This document shows, one piece after another, positions 1,298-11,270 of a stretch of 13,725 bases of DNA (position 1 is the stretch's first letter; each line of letters opens with the position of its first letter). The stretch is from Actinomycetota bacterium (GTDB lineage Bacteria; Actinomycetota; Actinomycetes; Streptosporangiales; Streptosporangiaceae): positions 6,876 through 20,600 of the forward strand of contig PLIQ01000557.1 in the NCBI GenBank assembly GCA_003140115.1. The letters are read 5' to 3'. The position numbers and the translations under genes were made by a program. The notes under the pieces were generated by a model. That model made no database searches. It was not told the origin of the DNA and saw only the letters and a list, made by a program, of their open reading frames with translations.

Positions 1298-1328
1298 TTG
1301 GCCGCACCGAGTGTGACGTAGGTACAAT
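1298..1328 (+). promoter_or_regulatory. Candidate promoter of the oxidoreductase-PmoA-cupin operon
   Basis: A good -10 hexamer, TACAAT (1323-1328), lies in the otherwise short gap after the dehalogenase remnant. The best -35 is TTGGCC (1298-1303), with a rather long 19-base spacer, so the -35 is weak. Transcription would start near 1335, some 10 bases before the palindromic operator at 1346. The region 1285-1388 holds this promoter, the operator and the ribosome binding site, and nothing else that I can see. Confidence 0.5.
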
Positions 1329-1345: not shown

Positions 1346-1362
1346 CTTCGAAACTTTCGAAG
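1346..1362. promoter_or_regulatory. Perfect 17-bp palindromic operator, probably LacI-family
   Basis: CTTCGAAACTTTCGAAG is a perfect inverted repeat (8 bases, 1-base centre at 1354, 8 bases). It lies about +11 to +27 relative to the predicted start, ahead of the start codon, where a bound repressor would block transcription. Its core CGAAA-N-TTTCG recurs in variant form at the two other promoters of the locus (7581-7611 and 7780-7796), which ties the operon to the LacI-family gene at 7843. From memory, the xylobiose regulator BxlR of Streptomyces was described as binding a short CGAA/TTCG inverted repeat, so the type of site fits; the identity of the protein is inference. Confidence 0.75.
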
Positions 1363-1388
1363 AGGTGCGCGAGAGCCTGGAGGTCGCC

Positions 1389-2648
1389 GTGCCATCCGGA
1401 CCCATCCGGGTAGCGATCGTCGGAACCGGGGGCATCGCCCGGGTTCACGCCGAGGCCCTGCGGCCCGACCCGGCCGCGACCGCACCGGCGCCCGGGGCCC
1501 CGGCAGCGGCCCCCGGCGCCCCGGACCCGGCCAGCGGCGTCCCGGACCCGGCCCGCGCGGCGCTCGTCGCCGCCGCCGACGTCGACCCGGACCGGCTCGC
1601 CGCCTTCGCCCGCGAGCACGGCGTGTCCGCGACCTACAGCCGCCTCGACGACCTGCTCCGCGATACCCGTCCCGATCTGGTACACATCTGCACGCCGCCG
1701 TTCGCGCACCACCAGCAGGCGTTGGCCTGCCTGCGGGCCGGCGTGAGCGTCCTGGTGGAAAAGCCGCCGGTGATCAGCCTGCGTGAGTTCGACGAGCTCA
1801 CCGCAGCCGAACTCACCGCGGCCGAGCCCGCGACGGGCGCCGCGGCGGCCCCGGTGGCCGCCTACCCGGGCCCGTGGTTCGCCAGCGTCTACCAGCACCG
1901 GTTCGGGGCGGCGCCGCGGCGGCTGAAGGCGCTGATCGCCGACGGGACGCTCGGCCGCCCGCTGATCGCCGTGTGTCACACCACCTGGTTCCGTGATCAG
2001 GCGTACTTCGACGTTCCGTGGCGCGGCCGGTGGGATACCGAGGGCGGCGGTCCCACCATGGGCCACGGCATCCATCAGATGGACCTGCTCCTGGACGTGC
2101 TCGGCGACTGGGCCGAAGTCCGCGCGATCGCCCGCCGCCAGGCCCGCCGGACGCGGACCGAGGACGTGTCGCTGGCCCACGTCACGTTCGCCAGCGGCGC
2201 GGTCTCGAGCGTGGTCAACAGCGTGCTGTCGCCGCGCGAGGAGAGCTACCTGCGCTTCGACTTCGAGCATGCGAGCGTCGAGGTGACGCACCTGTACGGG
2301 TACACCGACCAGGACTGGCGGATCACCCCCGCCCCCGGATGGCAGCCGCCGGGACCGCTCACCCCGCCGGGACCGCTCAGCCCGCTGGGCTCGCTCGCCC
2401 CGCCGGGCTCACCCAGCCGGCCGGGCCCGGCTACGCCGAGCGGTCACCGGGGCCAGTTCGCCGAGGTGCTGGCGTGCCTGGCGGCTGGCCAGCGCCCGCC
2501 GGTGGCGCCGGGCGAGAGCCGCCGCACGCTGGCCCTGGTGGCGGCGATCTATGCCGCGGCCTTTACCGGCCAGCCGGTGACCCCGGCGGACCTGGCCGAG
2601 GGGTCGCCGTTCTACGACCGGATGGACGGGGGACAGGCGCCGTGGTGA
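1389..2648 (+). CDS. Gfo/Idh/MocA-family NAD(P)-dependent oxidoreductase with proline-rich insertions
   Basis: This 419-residue protein belongs to the family that oxidises or reduces hydroxyl groups of sugars, inositols and related polyols with NAD(P) in the cytoplasm. Residues 6-17 form the dinucleotide-binding turn (IRVAIVGTGGIA), EKPP (124-127) is the conserved Lys-Pro loop, and GGGPTMGHGIHQMD carries the catalytic-type His229 and Asp232. I chose GTG 1389 because TGGAGG (1378-1383) sits five bases upstream. The alternative GTG 1365 has no spaced ribosome binding site and abuts the operator. Three low-complexity insertions are unusual: Ala/Pro-rich residues 26-56 between the first helix and second strand of the Rossmann fold, ELTAAELTAAE at 136-146, and four Pro/Gly-rich hexapeptides at 320-343. 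Family members are usually about 330-390 residues, so these account for the extra length. It is the first gene of an operon and its stop overlaps the PmoA-like gene start. The substrate cannot be read from the sequence. Confidence 0.9.
   Translation: MPSGPIRVAIVGTGGIARVHAEALRPDPAATAPAPGAPAAAPGAPDPASGVPDPARAALVAAADVDPDRLAAFAREHGVSATYSRLDDLLRDTRPDLVHICTPPFAHHQQALACLRAGVSVLVEKPPVISLREFDELTAAELTAAEPATGAAAAPVAAYPGPWFASVYQHRFGAAPRRLKALIADGTLGRPLIAVCHTTWFRDQAYFDVPWRGRWDTEGGGPTMGHGIHQMDLLLDVLGDWAEVRAIARRQARRTRTEDVSLAHVTFASGAVSSVVNSVLSPREESYLRFDFEHASVEVTHLYGYTDQDWRITPAPGWQPPGPLTPPGPLSPLGSLAPPGSPSRPGPATPSGHRGQFAEVLACLAAGQRPPVAPGESRRTLALVAAIYAAAFTGQPVTPADLAEGSPFYDRMDGGQAPW
1520..1553 (+). repeat. Direct repeat in the Ala/Pro-rich insert of the oxidoreductase
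   Basis: The 13-mer CCCGGACCCGGCC occurs at 1520-1532 and again at 1541-1553, a period of 21 bases, encoding the similar peptides APDPAS and VPDPAR. It lies in residues 26-56, a stretch with no counterpart in typical family members. The repeat suggests growth of the insert by slippage. Confidence 0.6.
1794..1823 (+). repeat. 15-bp tandem duplication inside the oxidoreductase gene
   Basis: Two adjacent 15-base units (1794-1808 and 1809-1823) differ at two positions and both encode ELTAA. They fall just after the EKPP loop, in the connection before the substrate-side strand. Two units only, so this is a small recent duplication. Confidence 0.55.
2346..2417 (+). repeat. Four tandem 18-bp repeats encoding proline-rich hexapeptides
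   Basis: Units start at 2346, 2364, 2382 and 2400. The first two differ at one base; the third and fourth are more diverged. They encode PPGPLT, PPGPLS, PLGSLA and PPGSPS (residues 320-343 of the oxidoreductase). A fifth, degenerate proline/glycine-rich stretch follows. The unit is a multiple of three, so copy number can change without breaking the frame. It lies between the end of the beta-sheet domain and the last helices (HRGQFAEVLACL). Confidence 0.75.
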
Positions 2649-3508
2649 TGTCCGTCCGTGACGACCACGCGGCCGTCCAGGCCCGGTGGGACGACGCGGA
2701 GCTGTTCCGTTACGTGTACCTGCCGGACGATCCGCCGCTGGAGTCGCCCCGGCCGTACCTTCATCCGGTGCGCACCCTGGCCGGGGAGCTGGTGACCGAC
2801 TACCGTCCCGGTGATCACCCGTGGCACAAGGGGATCTCCTGGTCGCTGCCGAACGTCGGAACCGAGAACTTCTGGGGTGGTCCGACGTACCGCCGGGGCG
2901 ACGGCTACATCCAGCTCGACAACAACGGCGCCATGCGGCACGACGGCTTCGGCGCGATCGGGGCCAGCGGCGGCCAGGCCGGCCTGGCCGAGCGGCTGAC
3001 CTGGGTGACCGCAGCGGGCCAGGCGCTGTTCACCGAGCAGCGCCGGATCACGGCCGCCGTCCGGCCGGACCGGTCCGCCTGGTCCTGCGCGTTCCAGACC
3101 ACGATGCGCAACGTCAGCGGGCGGACGGTCGCCATCGGCAGCCCGACCACCGAGGGCCGGGAGGCCGCGGGGTACGGCGGCCTGTTCTGGCGGGGGCCCG
3201 CCGCGTTCGCCGGCGGCCGCGTGCTGACCCCCGACGGGGCCGGCCGGGACGAGGTCATGGGCTGGCGCGGGCCGTGGCTGGCGTTCGCGACCCCGGCGGC
3301 GACGCTGATCTTCCGCGATTCGCCGGCCAACCCCGGCTTCCCGTGCCAGTGGTTCGTGCGCAGCTCGCCCTACGCGTGCGTGTGCCCGGCACCGTTCTTC
3401 GCCGCGGAAGTCCCGGTCCCCGCCGCGGCCGAGCTGACCCTGCGCTACGAGGTCGTCGTCGCCACCGGCGAGCTGACCATCGATGCCTGCGTTACGGAAA
3501 GAGCCTAA
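2648..3508 (+). CDS. PmoA-family (DUF6807) protein
   Basis: The protein is about 286 residues, soluble and without a signal peptide. It matches the family labelled 'PmoA' or DUF6807, whose name is misleading: it is not the membrane methane monooxygenase subunit, and its activity is not established. The diagnostic stretch is GDHPWHKGISWSLPNVGTENFWGG (split here: GDHPWHKG at 55-62, His57 and His60; ENFWGG shortly after). A later conserved TTEGREAAGYGGLFWRGP and a C-terminal NPGFPCQWFVRSSPYACV are also typical in character. The fold expected for the family is a beta-sandwich. The start is uncertain among GTG 2642, GTG 2645 and ATG 2648; GGGGGA (2628-2633) favours 2642 by spacing, while ATG 2648 shares a base with the upstream stop. 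All give nearly the same protein and all imply translational coupling. Members of this family commonly sit beside Gfo/Idh/MocA oxidoreductases, as here, suggesting a shared substrate. Confidence 0.85.
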   Translation: MSVRDDHAAVQARWDDAELFRYVYLPDDPPLESPRPYLHPVRTLAGELVTDYRPGDHPWHKGISWSLPNVGTENFWGGPTYRRGDGYIQLDNNGAMRHDGFGAIGASGGQAGLAERLTWVTAAGQALFTEQRRITAAVRPDRSAWSCAFQTTMRNVSGRTVAIGSPTTEGREAAGYGGLFWRGPAAFAGGRVLTPDGAGRDEVMGWRGPWLAFATPAATLIFRDSPANPGFPCQWFVRSSPYACVCPAPFFAAEVPVPAAAELTLRYEVVVATGELTIDACVTERA

Positions 3509-3509
3509 T

Positions 3510-4283
3510 TTGACCGAACGAAGCGTGCCTCACGCCCCACCGCCACCTCTCACCTCCCCGGGCCTGTCGTTCCCCGGCGCGACCGCGGTGACCATGCTGG
3601 AGGTCTACGACTGGATCGCGCCGGACGGCCTGCGCGGCGGCTCGGCCCACGTACACCTGGCGTCGACCGAGGGCTACGTGGTGCTGGCCGGCCACGGGCG
3701 GCTGCAGACCCTCGGCGCGCGGGGGTACGCCGAATCGGAGCTCCATCCGGGTGACTGCCTGTGGTTCACGCCCGGGATCATCCACCGGCTGGTCAACCAG
3801 GGCGGGCTGCGGCTGCTGGTCATCATGGCGAACGCGGGCCTGCCCGAGGCGGGCGACGCGGTGCTGACGTTCCCGCCGGAGATCCTGGCCGACCCCGCGG
3901 CGTACGCCCGGGCCGCCACGCTGCCGGCCAACGGGGCGCTGGAGGACGGGGCGCGGCGGCGGCGGGACCTCGCGATCGAGGGCTACCTGGCCCTGCGGGA
4001 CCAGTTCGCGGAGCGAGGGCCCGCCGCGCTGGAGGGATTCTTCGCCGCCGCGGTGCGGCTGGTGGCCGGGCGGGTGCCGCAGTGGCGGCAGCGGTGGCAG
4101 GCGGGGGCGTTCGCGGCGTCGGCGGCGACCGGACGCCAGCTGGACCAGCTCGCTGACGGCGACGCCGGCTATCTCGCCGCCGGCGTGCTGCGGCAGATCG
4201 CTCGCCCGGCCGGGCCGGCCGGGTACGGCATGTGCGGCTTGCTCACCCGCTACGACCCGGCCACCTCGGTGACGAGCCGCTGA
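3510..4283 (+). CDS. Cupin-domain protein with helical C-terminal extension
   Basis: This 257-residue protein has an N-terminal cupin barrel (about residues 25-110). Motif 1 is GGSAHVHLASTEGYVVLAGHG, giving His47, His49 and Glu54. Motif 2 is GDCLWFTPGIIH, giving His92. These four residues are the usual metal ligands of cupins, so a metal-bound sugar isomerase, epimerase, dioxygenase or sugar-binding role is possible; the sequence alone does not choose. Residues about 140-245 are mostly helical (RRRRDLAIEGYLALRDQFAE onward) and resemble no domain I can name. I chose TTG 3510, one base after the PmoA-like gene stop, because GGAAAG (3496-3501) lies eight bases upstream. ATG 3483 would overlap the previous gene by 26 bases with no ribosome binding site; GTG 3525 is also possible. 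It is the last gene of the operon and converges on the transporter genes. Confidence 0.8.
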   Translation: MTERSVPHAPPPPLTSPGLSFPGATAVTMLEVYDWIAPDGLRGGSAHVHLASTEGYVVLAGHGRLQTLGARGYAESELHPGDCLWFTPGIIHRLVNQGGLRLLVIMANAGLPEAGDAVLTFPPEILADPAAYARAATLPANGALEDGARRRRDLAIEGYLALRDQFAERGPAALEGFFAAAVRLVAGRVPQWRQRWQAGAFAASAATGRQLDQLADGDAGYLAAGVLRQIARPAGPAGYGMCGLLTRYDPATSVTSR

Positions 4284-4285
4284 GC

Positions 4286-4300
4286 GGGCTGGTTCAGCCC
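4286..4300. terminator. Short hairpin between convergent operons, possible bidirectional terminator
   Basis: GGGCTG-GTT-CAGCCC is a perfect six-base-pair stem with a three-base loop. It lies in the ten-base gap between the cupin stop (4283) and the permease stop, and extends a few bases into the permease gene. There is no T-run on either side, so it would be a weak intrinsic terminator; it is nevertheless the only stem I see at this convergent junction. Confidence 0.4.
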
Positions 4301-5175
4301 CTGATCGCGCCGACCAGGCCGCCGACGAGCCTGCGCTGGGCGAACACGAAGATGGCGAGCGCGGGGATCATCGACACGGCGGTGAACGCGTAGACCCGCG
4401 CGGTGTCCTGGGTGTAGGTGGACTGGAAGTTGGCCACGGCCAGGGGCAGCGTGTAGTGGTCCTGGCTGGTGAAGACGACCAGCGGCAGCAGGTAGGCGTT
4501 CCAGCTCGTGACGAAGGCCAAGATGCCGACGGTGATCAGGGCGGGCCGGGACAGCGGCAGCAGGATCCGCAGGAAGAACCGGATCCGGGTCGCGCCGTCC
4601 ACGATCGCGGCGTCCTCCAGTTCGCCCGGGATGGCGCGCATGAACGGCCGCAGGATGACGATCGTGACCGGGAGCGCGAACGCCGCCTCCGGCAGGGCCA
4701 CGCCGAGCAGGTTGTCGTTCAGGCCGATCTGCTGCAGCAGCAAGAACAGCGGCAGGGCCGCGGTGTTGAGCGGGAACAGCAGTCCGGCCACGAACAGCAC
4801 GTACAACCCTTCGCGCCCGCGGAACGTGTAGCGGGACAGCGCGAAGGCCGCCATCGAGCCGAGCGTCACGGCCAGCCCGGTCGCCACCACGGCGATCACC
4901 ACGCTGTTGGCCACGGCTTGCCAGAAGAGTGACGAGGTGGCGATCGCCGCGTAGTTGCTCCACACCCACGGGTGCGGGAGTGCGTTCGGGTTGGCGTTGA
5001 GCTGAGCGGTGGTGCTGAACCCGCCGACGACCATGTACAGCATCGGCGCGATCGTGATGGCCAGCACGAGCAGGATCACCAGGTAGCTGGCGGGCAGCGA
5101 GAGCCAGGTGCGGCGTTCGCGGATCACGTCCCGGCGCGGGGCGCGCCGGCCCAGCCGGGCGCTGGCGGCGGTCAT
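4294..5175 (-). CDS. Carbohydrate ABC transporter permease, MalG type
   Basis: This 293-residue inner-membrane protein has six predicted membrane segments (first at about 27-50). The cytoplasmic EAA loop runs at about 184-211 (GELEDAAIVDGATRIRFFLR, then ILLPLSRP) and docks the ATPase. The C-terminal half, with FVTSWNAYLLPLV, is characteristic of MalG-like permeases of the CUT1 class, which import di- and oligosaccharides. The start ATG 5175 follows AGGTGA by four bases, and the gene lies 19 bases after the preceding permease gene. It is the last gene of the transporter operon. No ATPase gene follows; in Streptomyces such importers share a general ATPase (MsiK) encoded elsewhere, and that is probably so here. 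Confidence 0.93.
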   Translation of the reverse strand: MTAASARLGRRAPRRDVIRERRTWLSLPASYLVILLVLAITIAPMLYMVVGGFSTTAQLNANPNALPHPWVWSNYAAIATSSLFWQAVANSVVIAVVATGLAVTLGSMAAFALSRYTFRGREGLYVLFVAGLLFPLNTAALPLFLLLQQIGLNDNLLGVALPEAAFALPVTIVILRPFMRAIPGELEDAAIVDGATRIRFFLRILLPLSRPALITVGILAFVTSWNAYLLPLVVFTSQDHYTLPLAVANFQSTYTQDTARVYAFTAVSMIPALAIFVFAQRRLVGGLVGAIRG

Positions 5176-5194
5176 CTGATCACCTGCTTCCTGG

Positions 5195-6139
5195 TCACAT
5201 GACGGCCCGGGTCAGCGCGCCGGCGGTGTCGCGGCGCAGCGCGTAGCGCTGGTAGGCCAGCGCGAAGACGACGGAGATGACGAACAGCACCACCGAGACC
5301 GTGGCGCCGTACCCGAACTGCGTGCGCTGGACGCCGTTGGTGTACTGGTAGGTCAGCATGGTGTTCGACGCGTTCGCCGGCCCGCCCAGGGTCATGATCC
5401 AGACCAGATCGAAGAGCTGGAGCGAGCCGATGACCGACAGGAAGATCCAGATCCGGATCGTCGGGGCCAGCAGCGGCAGCGTGATCGCCCGGGTCAGCTG
5501 CCACGGGGTGGCCCCGTCGATGGCCGCCGCCTCGCGCAGCTCGGGCGGGATGCCCTGCAGGCCGGCCAGCAGCAGGACGATTCCGAAGCCGATGTACTTC
5601 CAGGTGGCCACCACGAACACCGAGTACAGCACCAGCGATGTGCTGGCCAGCCAGTAGTGCACCAGGCCGCCGAGGCCGGCCGCCTTCAGCAGCGCGTCCA
5701 GCGGTCCGCCCGGCTGCAGCAGCTCGTACCACATCACCGCCGCCGTCGCCTCGGACAGCACGAACGGCGCGAACACGGCCAGCCGCAGGAACGTCCGGCC
5801 GCGCATCCGGCGGTTCAGCAGCAACGCCAGCCCGATGCTGATGGGAAGCTGGATCACCAGCGACAGCACGGCGATGATCACGTTGTGCAGCAGGGCCTGG
5901 TGGAAGACCGGGCCGGTCAGCACGCCGGTGTAGTTCGCCGTGCCGATGAAGTCGTTCAGCGGCCCGAAGCCGCTCCAGTTGTACAGGCTGTACCAGACGG
6001 CGAAGATCATCGGGACGATCACGAACCCGAGGAACAGGACGATCGGCGGGACGAGCAGCACGATCAGCTCGACCCGCTTGCGTACCACGCGCCGCGACCG
6101 TGGCGGGCGGGCACGCACCGCGCTCTGGGTGCGCGCCAT
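5195..6139 (-). CDS. Carbohydrate ABC transporter permease, MalF type
   Basis: This 314-residue membrane protein has an Arg-rich cytoplasmic N-terminus (residues 9-22), a first membrane segment at about 24-50 and five or so more. The EAA loop is at about 198-226 (PPELREAAAIDGATPWQLTR, then AITLPLLAP). The sequence after it (FDLVWIMTLGGPANASNT) is typical of MalF-like CUT1 permeases. The start ATG shares one base with the stop of the binding-protein gene (TGATG at 6141-6137), so the two are translationally coupled. It forms the heterodimeric channel with the MalG-type permease encoded next. Confidence 0.93.
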   Translation of the reverse strand: MARTQSAVRARPPRSRRVVRKRVELIVLLVPPIVLFLGFVIVPMIFAVWYSLYNWSGFGPLNDFIGTANYTGVLTGPVFHQALLHNVIIAVLSLVIQLPISIGLALLLNRRMRGRTFLRLAVFAPFVLSEATAAVMWYELLQPGGPLDALLKAAGLGGLVHYWLASTSLVLYSVFVVATWKYIGFGIVLLLAGLQGIPPELREAAAIDGATPWQLTRAITLPLLAPTIRIWIFLSVIGSLQLFDLVWIMTLGGPANASNTMLTYQYTNGVQRTQFGYGATVSVVLFVISVVFALAYQRYALRRDTAGALTRAVM

Positions 6140-7461
6140 CAGTGGCCGGAGCTACTGCTTACGGAGTTGATGATGGTCGAGTTGCTGCCCTGGCCCGCGA
6201 AGAAGTCCGCGAGCGCGTTGTCCAGCGCCTGACCCTGGTTGGTCGGGAAGGCGATGTCGAAGTACTCCGCGTCGTAGGCGGCGGTGTCGTGGGCCTTCGC
6301 GGCCGCCTGCAGCGCCGGGTCGGTCAGCACCGACTCGGCCGCGCTGTTCGCCGGCAGCCCGACGCCCGCCTTCTGCACCAGCTCCTCCTGGACCGGGGTG
6401 CTGTCGATGTACTGGAGGAACTCGGCGCAGGCCGGTTCGGCCGCCCCGGTGGTGCAGGAGAAGCCGTCACCGCCGGACAGCACGGCCGTCGCGGCACCCG
6501 CGCCGCCGGGAATCTGCGGGAACGGGAACCAGCCGAGCTCGGAGATGATGTTCTTGTTCGAGGTGAGGGCCGGGACCACGCTGGTCTCCCAGTCGCCCTG
6601 CAGCTCCATGGCGGCCTTGCCGTTGGCCAGCAGGCCGGCCGAGCTGCCCGCGCCGGTCTGGGCCTGGGTGGCGTTGAACCCGCCCTGGAACGGGCTGGTG
6701 GCCATGAACGCGGTCAGGTCCTTGGTCGCCTGGGAGAAGCACGGCGCGGTCATGTTGATGGCCTTGATCGAGGACTGCAGCACGGACTCGGAGCACTCCC
6801 GGACCGCGAAGTACTCCCAGTAGAACGCGTCCGGCCAGCGGCTGCCGCCGCCCAGCGCGATCGGGGTGATGCCGTGCGCCTTGAGCTTGACGTCATCGGA
6901 CTCGAGCTGGGCGATCGTGGTCGGCGGGGACGTGATGCCGGCCTTGGCGAACAGGTCCTTGCGGTACCAGAAGCCCACCACGTGCTGATCGTAGGGGATG
7001 CCGTACTGCTGCCCGTTGACCTGCCAGCCGGCCGCGGCCGGACCCACCTCGGTGATCCAGCTCGACGCGAGCGAACTGAGGTTGGTCAGCTTGCCCGAGG
7101 TGAACTGGGTGGCCTCCTGGCCGCCGCCCCACTGCTGGAAGATGTCCGGCGGGGTGTCCGACTTCAGGGCGATCGGCATCTTGGTGGTGAACAGGTCGCT
7201 CTGAATCGGGTCGACGCTGATCGTCACGTTCGGATGCGAGGCGTGGAACGCGGCCGCCACGCTCTGCCAGACGCCCAGCAGGGGCTGGGTGTTGCCGTTG
7301 TTCCACCAGGTGAGGGTGACCTTGGCGGTGCTGCTGCTGCTCGAGGTCGAGCTCGCGCTGGTACTTGAAGTGCTGGTGCTGGTGCTGCTACTGCACGCGG
7401 CGATCGTGACTGCCGCTGCCACCGCGACGGCGGCGATGGCAGGCTTCCTGGAACCTCGCAT
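6139..7461 (-). CDS. Extracellular sugar-binding lipoprotein of ABC transporter
   Basis: This 440-residue protein is a family 1 solute-binding protein. The N-terminus has basic residues (RGSRK), a hydrophobic stretch and a lipobox ending at Cys23 (TIAAC), so the mature protein is anchored on the outer face of the membrane by a diacylglyceryl cysteine. Residues 24-45 are almost all Ser and Thr, a flexible tether. The binding fold follows from VTLTWWNNG, through TPPDIFQQWGGGQEA and YGIPYDQHVVGFWYRKDLF, to GKAAMELQGDWE, all characteristic of oligosaccharide-binding members. AGGAGA (7471-7476) lies nine bases before ATG 7461. It is the first gene of the operon with two permeases. The ligand is not readable from sequence; the neighbouring GH3 enzyme makes a beta-linked xylo- or gluco-oligosaccharide the best guess. 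Confidence 0.93.
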   Translation of the reverse strand: MRGSRKPAIAAVAVAAAVTIAACSSSTSTSTSSTSASSTSSSSSTAKVTLTWWNNGNTQPLLGVWQSVAAAFHASHPNVTISVDPIQSDLFTTKMPIALKSDTPPDIFQQWGGGQEATQFTSGKLTNLSSLASSWITEVGPAAAGWQVNGQQYGIPYDQHVVGFWYRKDLFAKAGITSPPTTIAQLESDDVKLKAHGITPIALGGGSRWPDAFYWEYFAVRECSESVLQSSIKAINMTAPCFSQATKDLTAFMATSPFQGGFNATQAQTGAGSSAGLLANGKAAMELQGDWETSVVPALTSNKNIISELGWFPFPQIPGGAGAATAVLSGGDGFSCTTGAAEPACAEFLQYIDSTPVQEELVQKAGVGLPANSAAESVLTDPALQAAAKAHDTAAYDAEYFDIAFPTNQGQALDNALADFFAGQGSNSTIINSVSSSSGH

Positions 7462-7542
7462 GCGCTCTCATCTCCTGACGATGCCGAGGAACTCGTACTG
7501 CCGGGTCTGCTACTGGCGGGCCTCCTGGCGCTGCCGAAAGCG

Positions 7543-7570
7543 GCGGACGCGCATGACGAATGACGTCCGC
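7543..7570 (-). other. Inverted repeat in the leader of the transporter mRNA
   Basis: GCGGACG (7543-7549) pairs with CGTCCGC (7564-7570) across a 14-base loop, inside the predicted 146-base untranslated leader (about 7607 to 7462). The stem could stabilise the leader or affect expression; there is no further riboswitch-like conservation that I recognise. The rest of 7462-7842 holds the two promoters and operators listed separately and no gene. Confidence 0.35.
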
Positions 7571-7580
7571 ATCGACGCTC

Positions 7581-7611
7581 CGAAAGTTTAGGGAATTTTT
7601 CGGAAGTTCCG
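7581..7611. promoter_or_regulatory. Pair of operator-like sites at the transporter promoter
   Basis: Two 11-bp sites have centres exactly 20 bases apart (7586 and 7606), about two helical turns. The distal one is CGAAA-g-TTTAG (7581-7591), a near-match to the CGAAA-N-TTTCG core of the site at 1346. The proximal one is CGGAA-g-TTCCG (7601-7611), a perfect inverted repeat. For the minus-strand promoter the proximal site covers the predicted start (about 7607) and the distal one lies around +16 to +26. Two LacI-type dimers could bind the same DNA face. Binding is inferred. Confidence 0.6.
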
Positions 7612-7613
7612 TC

Positions 7614-7642
7614 ATCATAAGAAGCTGGGGCCGGCAGGTCAA
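7614..7642 (-). promoter_or_regulatory. Strong-consensus promoter of the sugar ABC transporter operon
   Basis: Read on the minus strand, TTGACC (7642-7637) is followed after exactly 17 bases by TATGAT (7619-7614), one or two changes from the vegetative sigma-70/HrdB consensus. Transcription would start near 7607, within the operator pair, which is a classical arrangement for repression by a LacI-family protein. This is the best promoter in the window. Confidence 0.7.
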
Positions 7643-7721
7643 TCCTTTGTTCCCAAGGTGTTACGTTCTATCCTGGTTCGCTGTTCTCCGGCTCTAGCGT
7701 CGTCATCTCTCCTGGTAACCG

Positions 7722-7749
7722 TGGACAAGTGCGGCAGCGTGCAGATAAT
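7722..7749 (+). promoter_or_regulatory. Candidate promoter of the LacI regulator-GH3 operon
   Basis: TGGACA (7722-7727) is separated by 16 bases from GATAAT (7744-7749). Transcription would start near 7756, leaving an 87-base leader before GTG 7843. The operator at 7780-7796 then lies about +25 to +41, so the regulator would limit its own synthesis. A second, weaker pair (TTGTTC 7647-7652, TATCCT 7669-7674) exists upstream. Confidence 0.55.
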
Positions 7750-7779
7750 GTCGGCAGGGATACCGGCTGCGATATCGTG

Positions 7780-7796
7780 ATCGAAAGTATTTCGAT
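7780..7796. promoter_or_regulatory. Inverted-repeat operator upstream of the LacI-family gene
   Basis: ATCGAAA-gta-TTTCGAT is a 7+3+7 inverted repeat centred at 7788. Its half-site TCGAAA is the same as in the 17-bp palindrome at 1346, but the half-sites are two bases further apart. It lies downstream of the regulator's predicted promoter and 46 bases before its start codon, as expected for autoregulation. Confidence 0.6.
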
Positions 7797-7842: not shown

Positions 7843-8901
7843 GTGCTTCCAAGCAGCAAAGCGGCGGCCGACAGCACCACCGGGAGGCAGCGGCGGACTA
7901 CCCTGGCGACCATCGCCGCCGAGGCAGGCGTGTCGCTGCCGACGGTCTCGAAGGTGGTGAACGGGCGCCGGGACGTCGCCCCCGCGACCCGCGCGCTCGT
8001 CGAGCGGCTGCTCGACGAGCATCACTACACGCGGGCCGGCACCCGCAGGAACCGCCGCTCCGGCCTGGTCGACCTGGTGCTCGCCGGCCTGGACAGCCCG
8101 TGGGCGGTGGAGATCCTGCGCGGCGTCGAGGAGTGGGGCTCGGCCCACGAGACGGGCGTGGCGGTGTCCGCGGTGCGGCACGGAAACGCCCGCCCGGCCA
8201 GCTGGACGAGCGCGCTGGCCAGCCACGACACCGACGGAGTGATCGTCGTCCTGTCGGAGTTCACCAGCGGCCAGCTCGAGCAGCTGCGCGAAGCCAACAT
8301 CCCGCTGGTGGTCATCGACCCGGTGAACCCGCCCCCGCCCGACCTGCCGAGCGTCGGCGCCACCAATTGGGCGGGCGGGCTGGCCGCCACGGAGCACCTG
8401 CTGGGCCTGGGGCACCGCCGGATCGGGGCGATCGCCGGGCCGGCCGATTACCTGTGCAGCCGGGCCAGGACGGACGGGTACCGGTCGGCACTGGAGCGAG
8501 CGGGCATCAGGTTCGACCCGGCACTCGTCCGCAACGGCGACTTCCGCCACGAGGGCGGCTTCTTGCACGGCGGCGAACTGCTCGACCTGGCCGATCCGCC
8601 GTCGGCCATCTTCGCCGGCAGCGACCAGCAGGCGTTCGGCCTGTACGAGGCCGCGCGGCAGCGGGGCCTGCGGGTGCCGCAGGATCTCTCGGTGGTCGGG
8701 TTCGACGACCTGCCGGTCGCCCGCTGGGTCTCGCCCCCGCTCACCACCGTGCGCCAGCCGCTCGCCGAGATGGGCCGGGCCGCGGCGCAGATGCTGGACG
8801 ACGTGATCGACGGTGTGCCGTTGCGCACCAACCGGGTCGAGCTGTCCACCGAGCTGATCGTCCGGGAGTCGACCGCGCAGCCCGGGCCAGCAGGCTCATG
8901 A
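7843..8901 (+). CDS. LacI-family transcriptional regulator of the sugar locus
   Basis: This 352-residue protein has an N-terminal helix-turn-helix (residues 20-45: TLATIAAEAGVSLPTVSKVV, then NGRRDV) and the LacI hinge region after it. A periplasmic-binding-protein-like effector domain begins near residue 64 (LVDLVLAGLDSPWAVEILRG) and ends with VVGFDDLPVARWVSPPLTTV plus RQPLAEMG, the usual C-terminal signature. GTG 7843 is the start: AGAAGGG (7828-7834) lies eight bases upstream and no homology precedes it. The gene is divergent from the transporter operon and its stop overlaps the GH3 start in ATGA (8898-8901), so the two are co-translated. Family knowledge makes it a repressor relieved by a sugar. 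The matching operators at three promoters suggest it controls the whole centre of the window. The layout recalls the streptomycete bxl (xylobiose) locus, but I would not assign that name. Confidence 0.92.
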   Translation: MLPSSKAAADSTTGRQRRTTLATIAAEAGVSLPTVSKVVNGRRDVAPATRALVERLLDEHHYTRAGTRRNRRSGLVDLVLAGLDSPWAVEILRGVEEWGSAHETGVAVSAVRHGNARPASWTSALASHDTDGVIVVLSEFTSGQLEQLREANIPLVVIDPVNPPPPDLPSVGATNWAGGLAATEHLLGLGHRRIGAIAGPADYLCSRARTDGYRSALERAGIRFDPALVRNGDFRHEGGFLHGGELLDLADPPSAIFAGSDQQAFGLYEAARQRGLRVPQDLSVVGFDDLPVARWVSPPLTTVRQPLAEMGRAAAQMLDDVIDGVPLRTNRVELSTELIVRESTAQPGPAGS

Positions 8902-11270
8902 AGATCACCGTGGTGGCCGGGGACCAGGCCGTGGCCGAGCCGTGGCGCGACCCGTCCCAGCCGGTCGCGGAGCGGGTCGCCGACCTGCTGAGCCGGATGA
9001 CGCTGGCCGAGAAGGTCGCGCAGCTCGGCAGCGTGTGGATCGGGGCCTCCGGCGACGGTGCCGGGGTGGCGCCCATGCAGCACGAGTTCAGTGCCGACCT
9101 GCCGCCGGCGGAAGACCTGTTCCGGGACGGCATGGGCCAGCTCACCCGGGTGTTCGGCACCCGCCCGGTGCCGCCCGCCGCGGGCATGCTCGCCCTGGCC
9201 GGGCTGCAGCAGCGGATCGTCGCCGCGAGCAGGTTCGGCATCCCGGCGATCGCGCACGAGGAGTGCCTCACCGGTTTCGCCGCCTGGCAGGCGACGATCT
9301 TTCCGGCGCCGCTGGCCTGGGGAGCGTCCTTCGACCCCGGCCTGGTGCGCGAGATGGCGGCCGCGATCGGAACCAGCATGCGGGCGAGCGGCGTGCACCA
9401 GGGCCTGGCGCCGGTGCTGGACGTGGGCCGGGACCCGCGTTGGGGCCGCACCGAGGAGACCGTCGGCGAGGACCCCTACCTGGTCGGCACGATCGGCACG
9501 GCGTACGTGCAGGGCCTGCAGTCGGCCGGAGTGGACGCGACGCTGAAGCACTTCGCCGGCTACTCGGCGTCCAGCGGCGGCCGGAACATGGCACCGGTGT
9601 CGATGGGCCAGCGCGAGTTCGCGGACGTGATCTTGCCGCCGTTCGAGATGGCGATCCGGCTGGGTGGTGCCCGCGCGGTGATGGCGTCCTACACCGCTCT
9701 GGACGGGGTACCGGCCACGGCCGACTGCGACCTGCTCGGCCGGCTGCTGCGGGACGAACTCGGCTTTGCCGGCCTGGTCGTATCCGACTACTACGCCGTG
9801 TCGTTCCTTGAGCTGCAGCACGCCGTGGCCGCCAGCCAGTCCGAGGCCGCGGCCGCCGCGCTGCACGCCGGGGTGGACATCGAGCTGCCCGCCGTCCGCT
9901 GCTACGGCGCGCCACTGCGCGAGGCCGTGGCGGCCGGGCTGACGGGCGAGGCCGCCGTCGACCGGGCGGCGGCGCGGGTCCTGACCCGCAAGTGCGAGCT
10001 CGGCCTGCTCGACCCGGACTGGACGCCGCTCCCGGCCGGGGCCGGGAGCGGCCCGGATCTGGACCCGCCGGAGCACCGGGAGCTGGCCCTGCGGCTGGCC
10101 GAGGAATCGATCGTCCTGCTGGCCAACCCGGCCGGGCTGCTCCCCGTGCGGCCGGACGCCCGGGTGGCGGTCGTCGGGCCGCTGGCCGACGACCCGCTGG
10201 CGTTCTTCGGCTGCTACAGCATGCCCAGGCACCTGGGCGAGGCCCACCCGGAGGCCGCGGCGAGCGTACCGGTGACCACGGTCCTGGCGGCCCTCAGGGG
10301 TGAACTCGCGGCGGGACCGGAGACGGTGAGCTACGCGCCGGGCTGCTCGGTGCGGTCCCGTGATACCTCGGGGTTCGCCGCGGCGGTGGCCGCTGCCGAG
10401 GCCGCGGACCTGGTGGTCGCCGTGGTCGGGGACGAGGCGGGGCTGTTCGGGCGCGGCACCTCCGGAGAGGGCTGCGATGCGGCCGATCTGCGCCTGCCGG
10501 GCGTCCAGGAGCACCTGCTCGAGGCGCTGGCCGGCACCCGGACCCCGGTCGTCGCCGTCCTGGTGACCGGACGGCCGTACGCGCTGGGTGCCGTCGCCGG
10601 CCGGCTGGCCGGGATCATCCAGGCCTTCTTTCCCGGTGAGGAAGGCGGCCGGGCGATCGCCGGCCTGCTGTCCGGGCGGATCGTGCCGAGCGGAAAGCTG
10701 CCGGTCCAGCTGCCTGCCATGACGACCACCTCGCCGTCGTCCTACCTGCGGTCCCGGCTGGCCAGCCAGCACGACGGCAGCTCGGTGGATCCGTCACCGC
10801 TGTTCGCGTTCGGGCACGGGCTGTCGTATACCAGCTTCGGGTATGAGGACCTGTCGATCTCGCCGGACCGCATTCTCACGGACGGGGTCGCGGAGATCTC
10901 CTGCTCGGTCCGCAATACCGGGTCGCGTGCGGGCACCGAGGTCGTGCAGCTCTACCTCAGCGACCCGGTCGCCTCCGTGGTGCGCCCGGTGCGCTGGCTG
11001 GCCGGCTTCATCCGGGTACCACTGGAACCCGGCGAACGACGCCGGGTCACGTTCCGGGTCCATGCCGACCGGACGGCGTTCGCCGGCCGCTCCGGCCAGC
11101 GGATCGTCGAGCCGGGAGAGATCGGTATCGGAGTCGGCGGTGCGTCCGACCACCTGCCGCTGCGTGGCTCGCTCACCCTGCACGGCCCGGTCCGGACCGT
11201 CGGCCCCGGCCGCGTCCTGGTCACCGAGGCCGCCCAGGACGACAGGAGGTCAGGCAGCTCCGGCTGCTAG
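8898..11270 (+). CDS. Glycoside hydrolase family 3 beta-glycosidase (beta-xylosidase/beta-glucosidase type), cytoplasmic
   Basis: This 790-residue enzyme hydrolyses beta-linked glycosides with retention. The (beta/alpha)8 domain (about 30-345) has RDPRWGR (178-184), KHFAGYS (Lys217-His218) and VVSDYY, whose Asp297 is the expected nucleophile. The alpha/beta sandwich domain (about 390-600) contains TSGEGCDAADLRLPG; Glu524 is the likely acid/base. FPGEEGGRAIAGLLSGRIVP and the fibronectin-III-like domain (about 680-760, EVVQLYLSDPVASVVRPVRW) complete the standard three-domain architecture. There is no signal peptide: the N-terminus MKITVVAGDQAVAEPWRDPS runs directly into the catalytic domain, so it acts on imported oligosaccharides. 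ATG 8898 overlaps the regulator stop. The 3' end overlaps the opposing acyl-CoA synthetase gene by 21 bases. Xylosidase versus glucosidase cannot be settled here. Confidence 0.93.
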   Translation: MKITVVAGDQAVAEPWRDPSQPVAERVADLLSRMTLAEKVAQLGSVWIGASGDGAGVAPMQHEFSADLPPAEDLFRDGMGQLTRVFGTRPVPPAAGMLALAGLQQRIVAASRFGIPAIAHEECLTGFAAWQATIFPAPLAWGASFDPGLVREMAAAIGTSMRASGVHQGLAPVLDVGRDPRWGRTEETVGEDPYLVGTIGTAYVQGLQSAGVDATLKHFAGYSASSGGRNMAPVSMGQREFADVILPPFEMAIRLGGARAVMASYTALDGVPATADCDLLGRLLRDELGFAGLVVSDYYAVSFLELQHAVAASQSEAAAAALHAGVDIELPAVRCYGAPLREAVAAGLTGEAAVDRAAARVLTRKCELGLLDPDWTPLPAGAGSGPDLDPPEHRELALRLAEESIVLLANPAGLLPVRPDARVAVVGPLADDPLAFFGCYSMPRHLGEAHPEAAASVPVTTVLAALRGELAAGPETVSYAPGCSVRSRDTSGFAAAVAAAEAADLVVAVVGDEAGLFGRGTSGEGCDAADLRLPGVQEHLLEALAGTRTPVVAVLVTGRPYALGAVAGRLAGIIQAFFPGEEGGRAIAGLLSGRIVPSGKLPVQLPAMTTTSPSSYLRSRLASQHDGSSVDPSPLFAFGHGLSYTSFGYEDLSISPDRILTDGVAEISCSVRNTGSRAGTEVVQLYLSDPVASVVRPVRWLAGFIRVPLEPGERRRVTFRVHADRTAFAGRSGQRIVEPGEIGIGVGGASDHLPLRGSLTLHGPVRTVGPGRVLVTEAAQDDRRSGSSGC

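Follow-up and report, generated by a model that had tools for sequence, protein, structure and literature searches.

We analyzed a 13,725-nucleotide stretch of DNA (the window; G+C content of 72%) from an actinomycete of the family Streptosporangiaceae (GenBank assembly GCA_003140115.1, contig PLIQ01000557.1), in which inverted repeats of the half-sites CGAAA and TTTCG lie at three operons: a LacI-family regulator gene followed by a GH3 gene, a divergent sugar importer, and a cassette encoding a Gfo/Idh/MocA oxidoreductase (GFO), a DUF6807 protein and a cupin protein (Table 1). We propose, with a probability of about 0.7, that the LacI-family repressor encoded at position 7843, a relative of Streptomyces BxlR, uses these repeats as operators, and that the three operons make up the part of a genome-wide xylan regulon that serves import and intracellular steps. 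A first-pass annotation of this DNA had assigned the repeats to one operator family at three promoters, and the sequences that it quoted were all found where it had placed them.

Results

CGAAA/TTTCG sites are conserved in the gap between the transporter and lacI

The pattern CGAAAN{1,3}TTTCG occurs exactly twice in the window, as CGAAACTTTCG before the GFO gene and as CGAAAGTATTTCG before lacI; none of 200 dinucleotide shuffles contained it. The first is the core of CTTCGAAACTTTCGAAG, a perfect 17-bp palindrome with a single central base, and the second is the core of ATCGAAAGTATTTCGAT, a palindrome except for its three central bases. A passage of PMC4743123 gives CGAAACTTTCG as the binding site of BxlR and as a motif found before xylan genes of S. 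lividans, while the motif is quoted with a variable gap, CGAANxTTCG, in a passage of PMC12772271. Thus, the GFO core is identical to the published motif and the lacI core fits its variable-gap form. When two mismatches were allowed, the window held four sites with a 1-bp spacer (1.66 expected; at least four in 17 of 200 shuffles) and one with a 3-bp spacer (1.43 expected). The relaxed motif is therefore near chance in the window, and the pair of sequences at 7581-7611 on the transporter side is insignificant from the window alone, so this side was judged by its conservation in relatives.

A scan of genome contigs for the regulator returned 354 relatives, and the locus counts given here refer to the best 80 of these (individual loci and genomes carry L and G numbers). 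A solute-binding protein (SBP) gene is divergent from and adjacent to lacI in 67 of the 80 loci, and a GH3 gene follows lacI on the same strand within 800 bases in 59. The gap between the SBP and lacI genes contains an exact site in 56 of 67 cases, compared with 0.24 loci expected from first-order Markov sequences, and a site with at most one mismatch in 65. This amounts to 61 sites per 25 kb of gap, versus 34 per 1.27 Mb elsewhere in those loci. The single operator family of the first-pass annotation, its self site before lacI and its sites at the divergent transporter are all supported by this conservation, together with the shuffling result.

Alignment of the transporter promoter from the window and eight close relatives showed an invariant CGAAA in the nine rows, with a TTTCG(G/A) half-site following after 12-14 bases; a minus-strand promoter, itself largely conserved, lies upstream of both. 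Two palindromes had earlier been read at 7581-7611. Only the CGAAA...TTTCG(G/A) arrangement is conserved, which describes one element at 7581-7603; the two-palindrome parsing was rejected because CGGAAGTTCCG (7601-7611) is palindromic only in L001 among the eight aligned relatives. Rows from Streptomyces and Actinomadura commonly have, as their transporter site, three half-sites in a run, 10-11 bp apart.

Given our -10 assignments, each of the three sites in the window lies downstream of a -10, in agreement with the earlier placement at or just downstream of promoters. The -10 of the GFO operon was assigned by eye; a consensus promoter scan of 1250-1450 returned no promoter, TACAAT included. 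A GCGATA/TACGAT element directly before the lacI site is common to several relatives. Separately, a GTTCCC-N5-GTTAC block on the plus strand (7649-7664), upstream of the transporter -35, is largely kept in the eight aligned relatives, mostly as GTTTCC-N5-GTTAC, and might be an activator site.

Sites occur genome-wide in relatives, many of them before xylan genes

The regulon had been called local, which the relatives do not support. In nine related genomes, CGAAAN{1,3}TTTCG was found 113 times, compared with 8 times for the pattern read backwards and 20 times for a GCAAAN{1,3}TTTGC control, and many sites precede xylanase, xylulokinase and esterase genes. In G006, a metagenome-assembled genome, 9 of 10 sites adjoin genes for xylulokinase (386.1 bits; NCBIfam cut-off, 380.25), a GDSL esterase-type protein, Esterase_PHB (two sites), GH3 (at the end of the preceding open reading frame) or GH10 (two sites), a GH3-GH30 gap, or lacI, and the tenth lies before an open reading frame that by eye resembles a stress protein. 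G005 (Trebonia kvetii) has 23 sites, and 11 of them are next to two GH10 genes (which account for 6), GH11, Esterase_PHB with CBM2, xylulokinase (401.6 bits, over the NCBIfam cut-off), lacI or the transporter. Operators of this type thus stand, in these relatives, before xylanase and xylose catabolism genes: GH10 and xylulokinase in G006, and GH10, GH11 and xylulokinase in G005. We infer a xylan role for the esterases of both genomes.

G001 contains 34 sites. Of the site regions fetched from it, 13 showed two GH11 genes, a GH10 gene, an FGGY kinase gene and the LacI-transporter gap, along with genes of the AMP-binding, MMPL and CBM3 types and open reading frames that we could not identify. In L176 and L185, both from this genome, sites precede AMP-binding (acyl-CoA synthetase type) genes with no obvious xylan context. 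Two sites, with spacers of 2 bp and 3 bp (C42:3803 and C42:3879), lie upstream of a GH115 (alpha-glucuronidase family) domain at G001:C42:2022-3119.

A single regulator may accept operators of differing spacing

With the window included, one mismatch allowed and the best match taken per gap, transporter-side spacers (63 rows) were 3 bp in 36, 2 bp in 21 and 1 bp in 6 rows, and self-site spacers (63 rows) were 2 bp in 47, 3 bp in 8 and 1 bp in 8. A hand count pooled from G006, G002 and G005 (G003 left out) gave, for spacers of 0 to 8 bp, 2, 13, 15, 9, 4, 1, 3, 5 and 5 sites, respectively.

Such a spread could arise if the sites were an alphabet common to several paralogous LacI regulators, such that a different BxlR-type protein, with its gene elsewhere in the genome, would act at the 1-bp site at 1346 and the 7843 protein only at its 3-bp self site. 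G001 and G002 do encode further LacI relatives (49-58% identity) with the similar helices VPTVSKV, VSTVSKV, VATVSKV and VSAVSKV, G001 has its 34 sites, and Streptomyces L066 holds both an orthologue of the window regulator and a BxlR-like protein. However, G006 and G005 each have a single LacI with an LPTVSK helix among the helices inspected (15 of 19 matches in G006 and 10 of 30 in G005, the uninspected ones scoring lower), yet they carry 1-, 2- and 3-bp sites before xylan-type genes. The next best LacI proteins are only 36% (G006) and 45% (G005) identical, although a paralogue could be missing from G006, given its metagenomic origin. Furthermore, close orthologues sharing the LPTVSKVVN helix differ in their self sites, which are exact with a 3-bp spacer in L001, L002, L004, L006 and the window, exact with a 1-bp spacer in L003 and L005, and 1-bp with one mismatch in L008 and L009; a self site was looked for in L007, which has the same helix, and none was found. 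We therefore regard division of the sites among paralogues as unlikely, and favor the 7843 repressor as the protein that would act at all three operons.

A LacI paralogue (49% identical) was also seen at G003:C245:19177-22119, with a GH67 domain adjoining and a 1-bp site approximately 0.2 kb before the paralogue.

The GFO-DUF6807-cupin cassette accompanies the regulator in 30 of 80 loci

Of the 80 LacI loci, 30 contain GFO, DUF6807 and cupin genes together, and so do 27 of the 61 loci whose sequence extends 5 kb or more past the permease. In 25 of the 30, GFO and the transporter point in the same direction. A GH30 gene lies between cassette and transporter in L012 and L037, and a GH10 domain in L041, while L022 has LacI-GH3-GH43-GH30 and then the cassette, all on one strand. 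In L111, the LacI gene (product 84-85% identical to that of the window, and its nearest row in the tree, with weak support of 88/46) is directly behind the cupin gene, with a 3-bp site between them.

The site itself is less widespread. Among ten GFO upstream regions (the window and nine relatives), three have an exact site just past a -10: the window, L111 (2-bp spacer; 42 bases separate the site from the start of the match) and L114 (1-bp spacer; 33 bases). Seven of the nine relatives, including the syntenic L006, lack an exact site (the others are L112, L113, L115, L119, L133 and L142); L115 has a degenerate one by eye. The refuting condition set by the first-pass annotation, a lack of conservation upstream of orthologous genes, thus gave a split outcome for the 1346 site, which two of these relatives share and seven do not. 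The link that the first-pass annotation drew between regulator and cassette is thus supported, well founded by gene neighborhood and moderately by the site.

These absences, and a scan that flagged the 1346 palindrome as a minus-strand terminator-like hairpin, would be accommodated if the palindrome were a transcription terminator or had arisen by chance. As the genes between the palindrome and 4283 point rightwards, a leftward transcript is unexpected there, and no T-run follows it on the plus strand. The shuffles produced neither the exact pattern nor the 15-bp core of the palindrome (0 of 200 for each), and L111 and L114 carry sites at the same position. We consider a terminator or a chance origin highly improbable, and treat the 1346 palindrome as a candidate operator below.

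Among proteins of solved structure, 49 distinct Gfo/Idh/MocA sequences match the GFO protein. The one ranked fourth by E-value (8tdi, 2.9e-14) carries the name glucuronide-3-dehydrogenase, which we take as a lead only. For DUF6807, no solved relative was found by sequence up to an E-value of 1. In the open PMC literature a single paper mentions DUF6807 or its PmoA names, and this in passing; "PmoA family protein" is absent among the matches listed, and neither "PmoA" nor "cupin" occurs in the text of PMC12772271. The idea that the cassette replaces an alpha-glucuronidase found no support: GH67 or GH115 was present in one of three searched genomes with the cassette (G001 among G001, G006 and G007) and in one of three without it (G003 among G002, G003 and G005).

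Features of the window

The 7843 protein has both domains of a LacI-family repressor, a helix-turn-helix and a periplasmic-binding-like sensor domain, over their cut-offs. It shares 54% identity with the BxlR-like protein of Streptomyces L066, which was named by its position beside a transporter-GH3 operon only, and 61% with another LacI of L066. In the tree the L066 BxlR-like protein groups with L223, apart from the window clade, on a long branch and with weak deep forks (51/91). We call the window regulator BxlR-type, i.e., a relative of BxlR. Upstream of the cassette, the plus strand at 778-1284 appears by eye to encode the C-terminal portion of a HAD-type hydrolase; the frame lacks a proper start and may represent a truncated gene.

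Table 1. Genes, promoters and candidate operators of the window.
Feature	Position	Strand	Basis and remarks
Putative -10 of GFO operon, TACAAT	1323..1328	+	Read by eye
Candidate operator at GFO promoter	1346..1362	.	CTTCGAAACTTTCGAAG; 1-bp spacer; core CGAAACTTTCG at 1349-1359
GFO, Gfo/Idh/MocA oxidoreductase	1389..2648	+	Pfam PF01408, PF22725; GTG start preceded by GGAGG chosen by eye; earlier GTG at 1365
DUF6807 protein ("PmoA")	2648..3508	+	Pfam PF14100, 262.5 bits
Cupin protein	3510..4283	+	Pfam PF07883, 36.6 bits
Sugar ABC transporter permease 2	4294..5175	-	Pfam PF00528
Sugar ABC transporter permease 1	5195..6139	-	Pfam PF00528
SBP, extracellular solute(sugar)-binding protein	6139..7461	-	Pfam PF01547
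Candidate operator block at SBP promoter	7581..7603	.	Outermost half-sites CGAAA and TTTCGG, 12 bases between; middle degenerate
SBP promoter, TTGACC-17-TATGAT	7614..7642	-	Consensus scan; largely conserved in relatives, less in L008 and L009
lacI promoter, TGGACA-16-GATAAT	7722-7749		Consensus scan
Candidate self-operator before lacI	7780..7796	.	ATCGAAAGTATTTCGAT; 3-bp spacer; core CGAAAGTATTTCG at 7782-7794; orthologous sites in relatives
LacI-family regulator	7843..8901	+	Pfam PF00356, 39.9 bits; PF13377, 150.5 bits; recognition helix region SLPTVSKVVN
GH3 enzyme, close to beta-xylosidase/alpha-L-arabinosidase	8898..11270	+	NF052329

Discussion

We propose that, without inducer, the 7843 repressor would sit just downstream of the -10 at three promoters, those of lacI itself with GH3, of the sugar importer and of GFO-DUF6807-cupin, and would block transcription by RNA polymerase. 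The repressor would leave the DNA in response to a xylan-derived oligosaccharide, probably xylobiose; release by such a sugar is suggested by the analogy with BxlR and by the target genes. The three operons would then serve as the import and intracellular end of a regulon that extends over the genome. The sequences show the sites, their conservation in orthologous gaps, the recurring gene neighborhood and sites of identical type before xylanolytic genes of relatives; binding, repression, inducer and occupancy of the 1346 site by the 7843 protein are what we infer.

Several observations, besides the seven GFO upstream regions that lack the site, weigh against this proposal. The spacers of the window differ (1 bp at 1346 and 3 bp at 7780), so that a second regulator might act at 1346. 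An exact site lies within 400 bases in only 5 of 49 GFO upstream regions (the window, L111, L114, L124 and L129), and in L124 and L129 DUF6807 is not adjacent to GFO; the background was 51 of 4000 random 400-base windows from the same loci, and in many of the 49 loci GFO probably sits inside an operon. The GH3 protein scores 1028.8 bits against NF052329, slightly below the cut-off of 1050, and the GH30 protein of L012 scores 98.4 bits, far below the 650 cut-off of the glucuronoarabinoxylanase XynC model. In G005, 12 of 23 sites lie away from recognized xylan genes (a judgment based on Pfam for 4 and, for the others, on inspection by eye or the lack of a called gene). The Esterase_PHB protein of G005 scores above the cut-off that NCBIfam sets for a PHA depolymerase family, and no NCBIfam model matched the GDSL protein of G006. 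Finally, G002 has four sites in total, which are 4 of its 13 sites with spacers of 0 to 8 bp, i.e., little excess.

A bolder version of the proposal is tentative: a single LacI of the BxlR clade may read CGAAA/TTTCG at 1-, 2- and 3-bp spacers, often as three half-sites 10-11 bp apart, and its regulon may include GFO-DUF6807-cupin as an undescribed enzyme module for decorated xylo-oligosaccharides, perhaps oxidizing a uronic side group. Processing of decorated xylo-oligosaccharides is our guess at the role of the cassette. The recurrent placement of these three genes, one of them annotated as PmoA, beside and probably under an actinomycete xylan repressor gives a testable direction for their substrate, and the locus lends itself to asking how a single LacI protein copes with operators of differing spacing.

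Compared with canonical LacI operators, as surveyed in RegPrecise, the sites are similar in being inverted repeats near sugar-gene promoters, with autoregulation common. According to a passage of that survey (PMC4052901), 1251 of 1303 regulators have even palindromes, mostly with a central CG, and spacing is usually constant within an orthologous group, flexibility being rare. The sites described here depart from this pattern of even palindrome, central CG and constant spacing, since both odd and even spacers (1, 2 and 3 bp) are seen, in different orthologues as well as in a single genome. Such flexibility may have a precedent, because the BxlR motif CGAANxTTCG already has a variable gap. The closest known system is BxlR/bxlEFGA of Streptomyces, which, in the passages of PMC4743123 and PMC12772271 that describe it, shares with the window the operator CGAAACTTTCG/CGAANxTTCG, a LacI-family regulator and an adjoining sugar-binding ABC importer and GH3 gene, and has the same motif at xylan genes elsewhere in the genome, as seen here in relatives. 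Unlike in that system, lacI is followed by the GH3 gene in the window, and GFO-DUF6807-cupin joins the set. The sites belong to a known kind, and what would be newly tied to them are the three conserved genes of the cassette.

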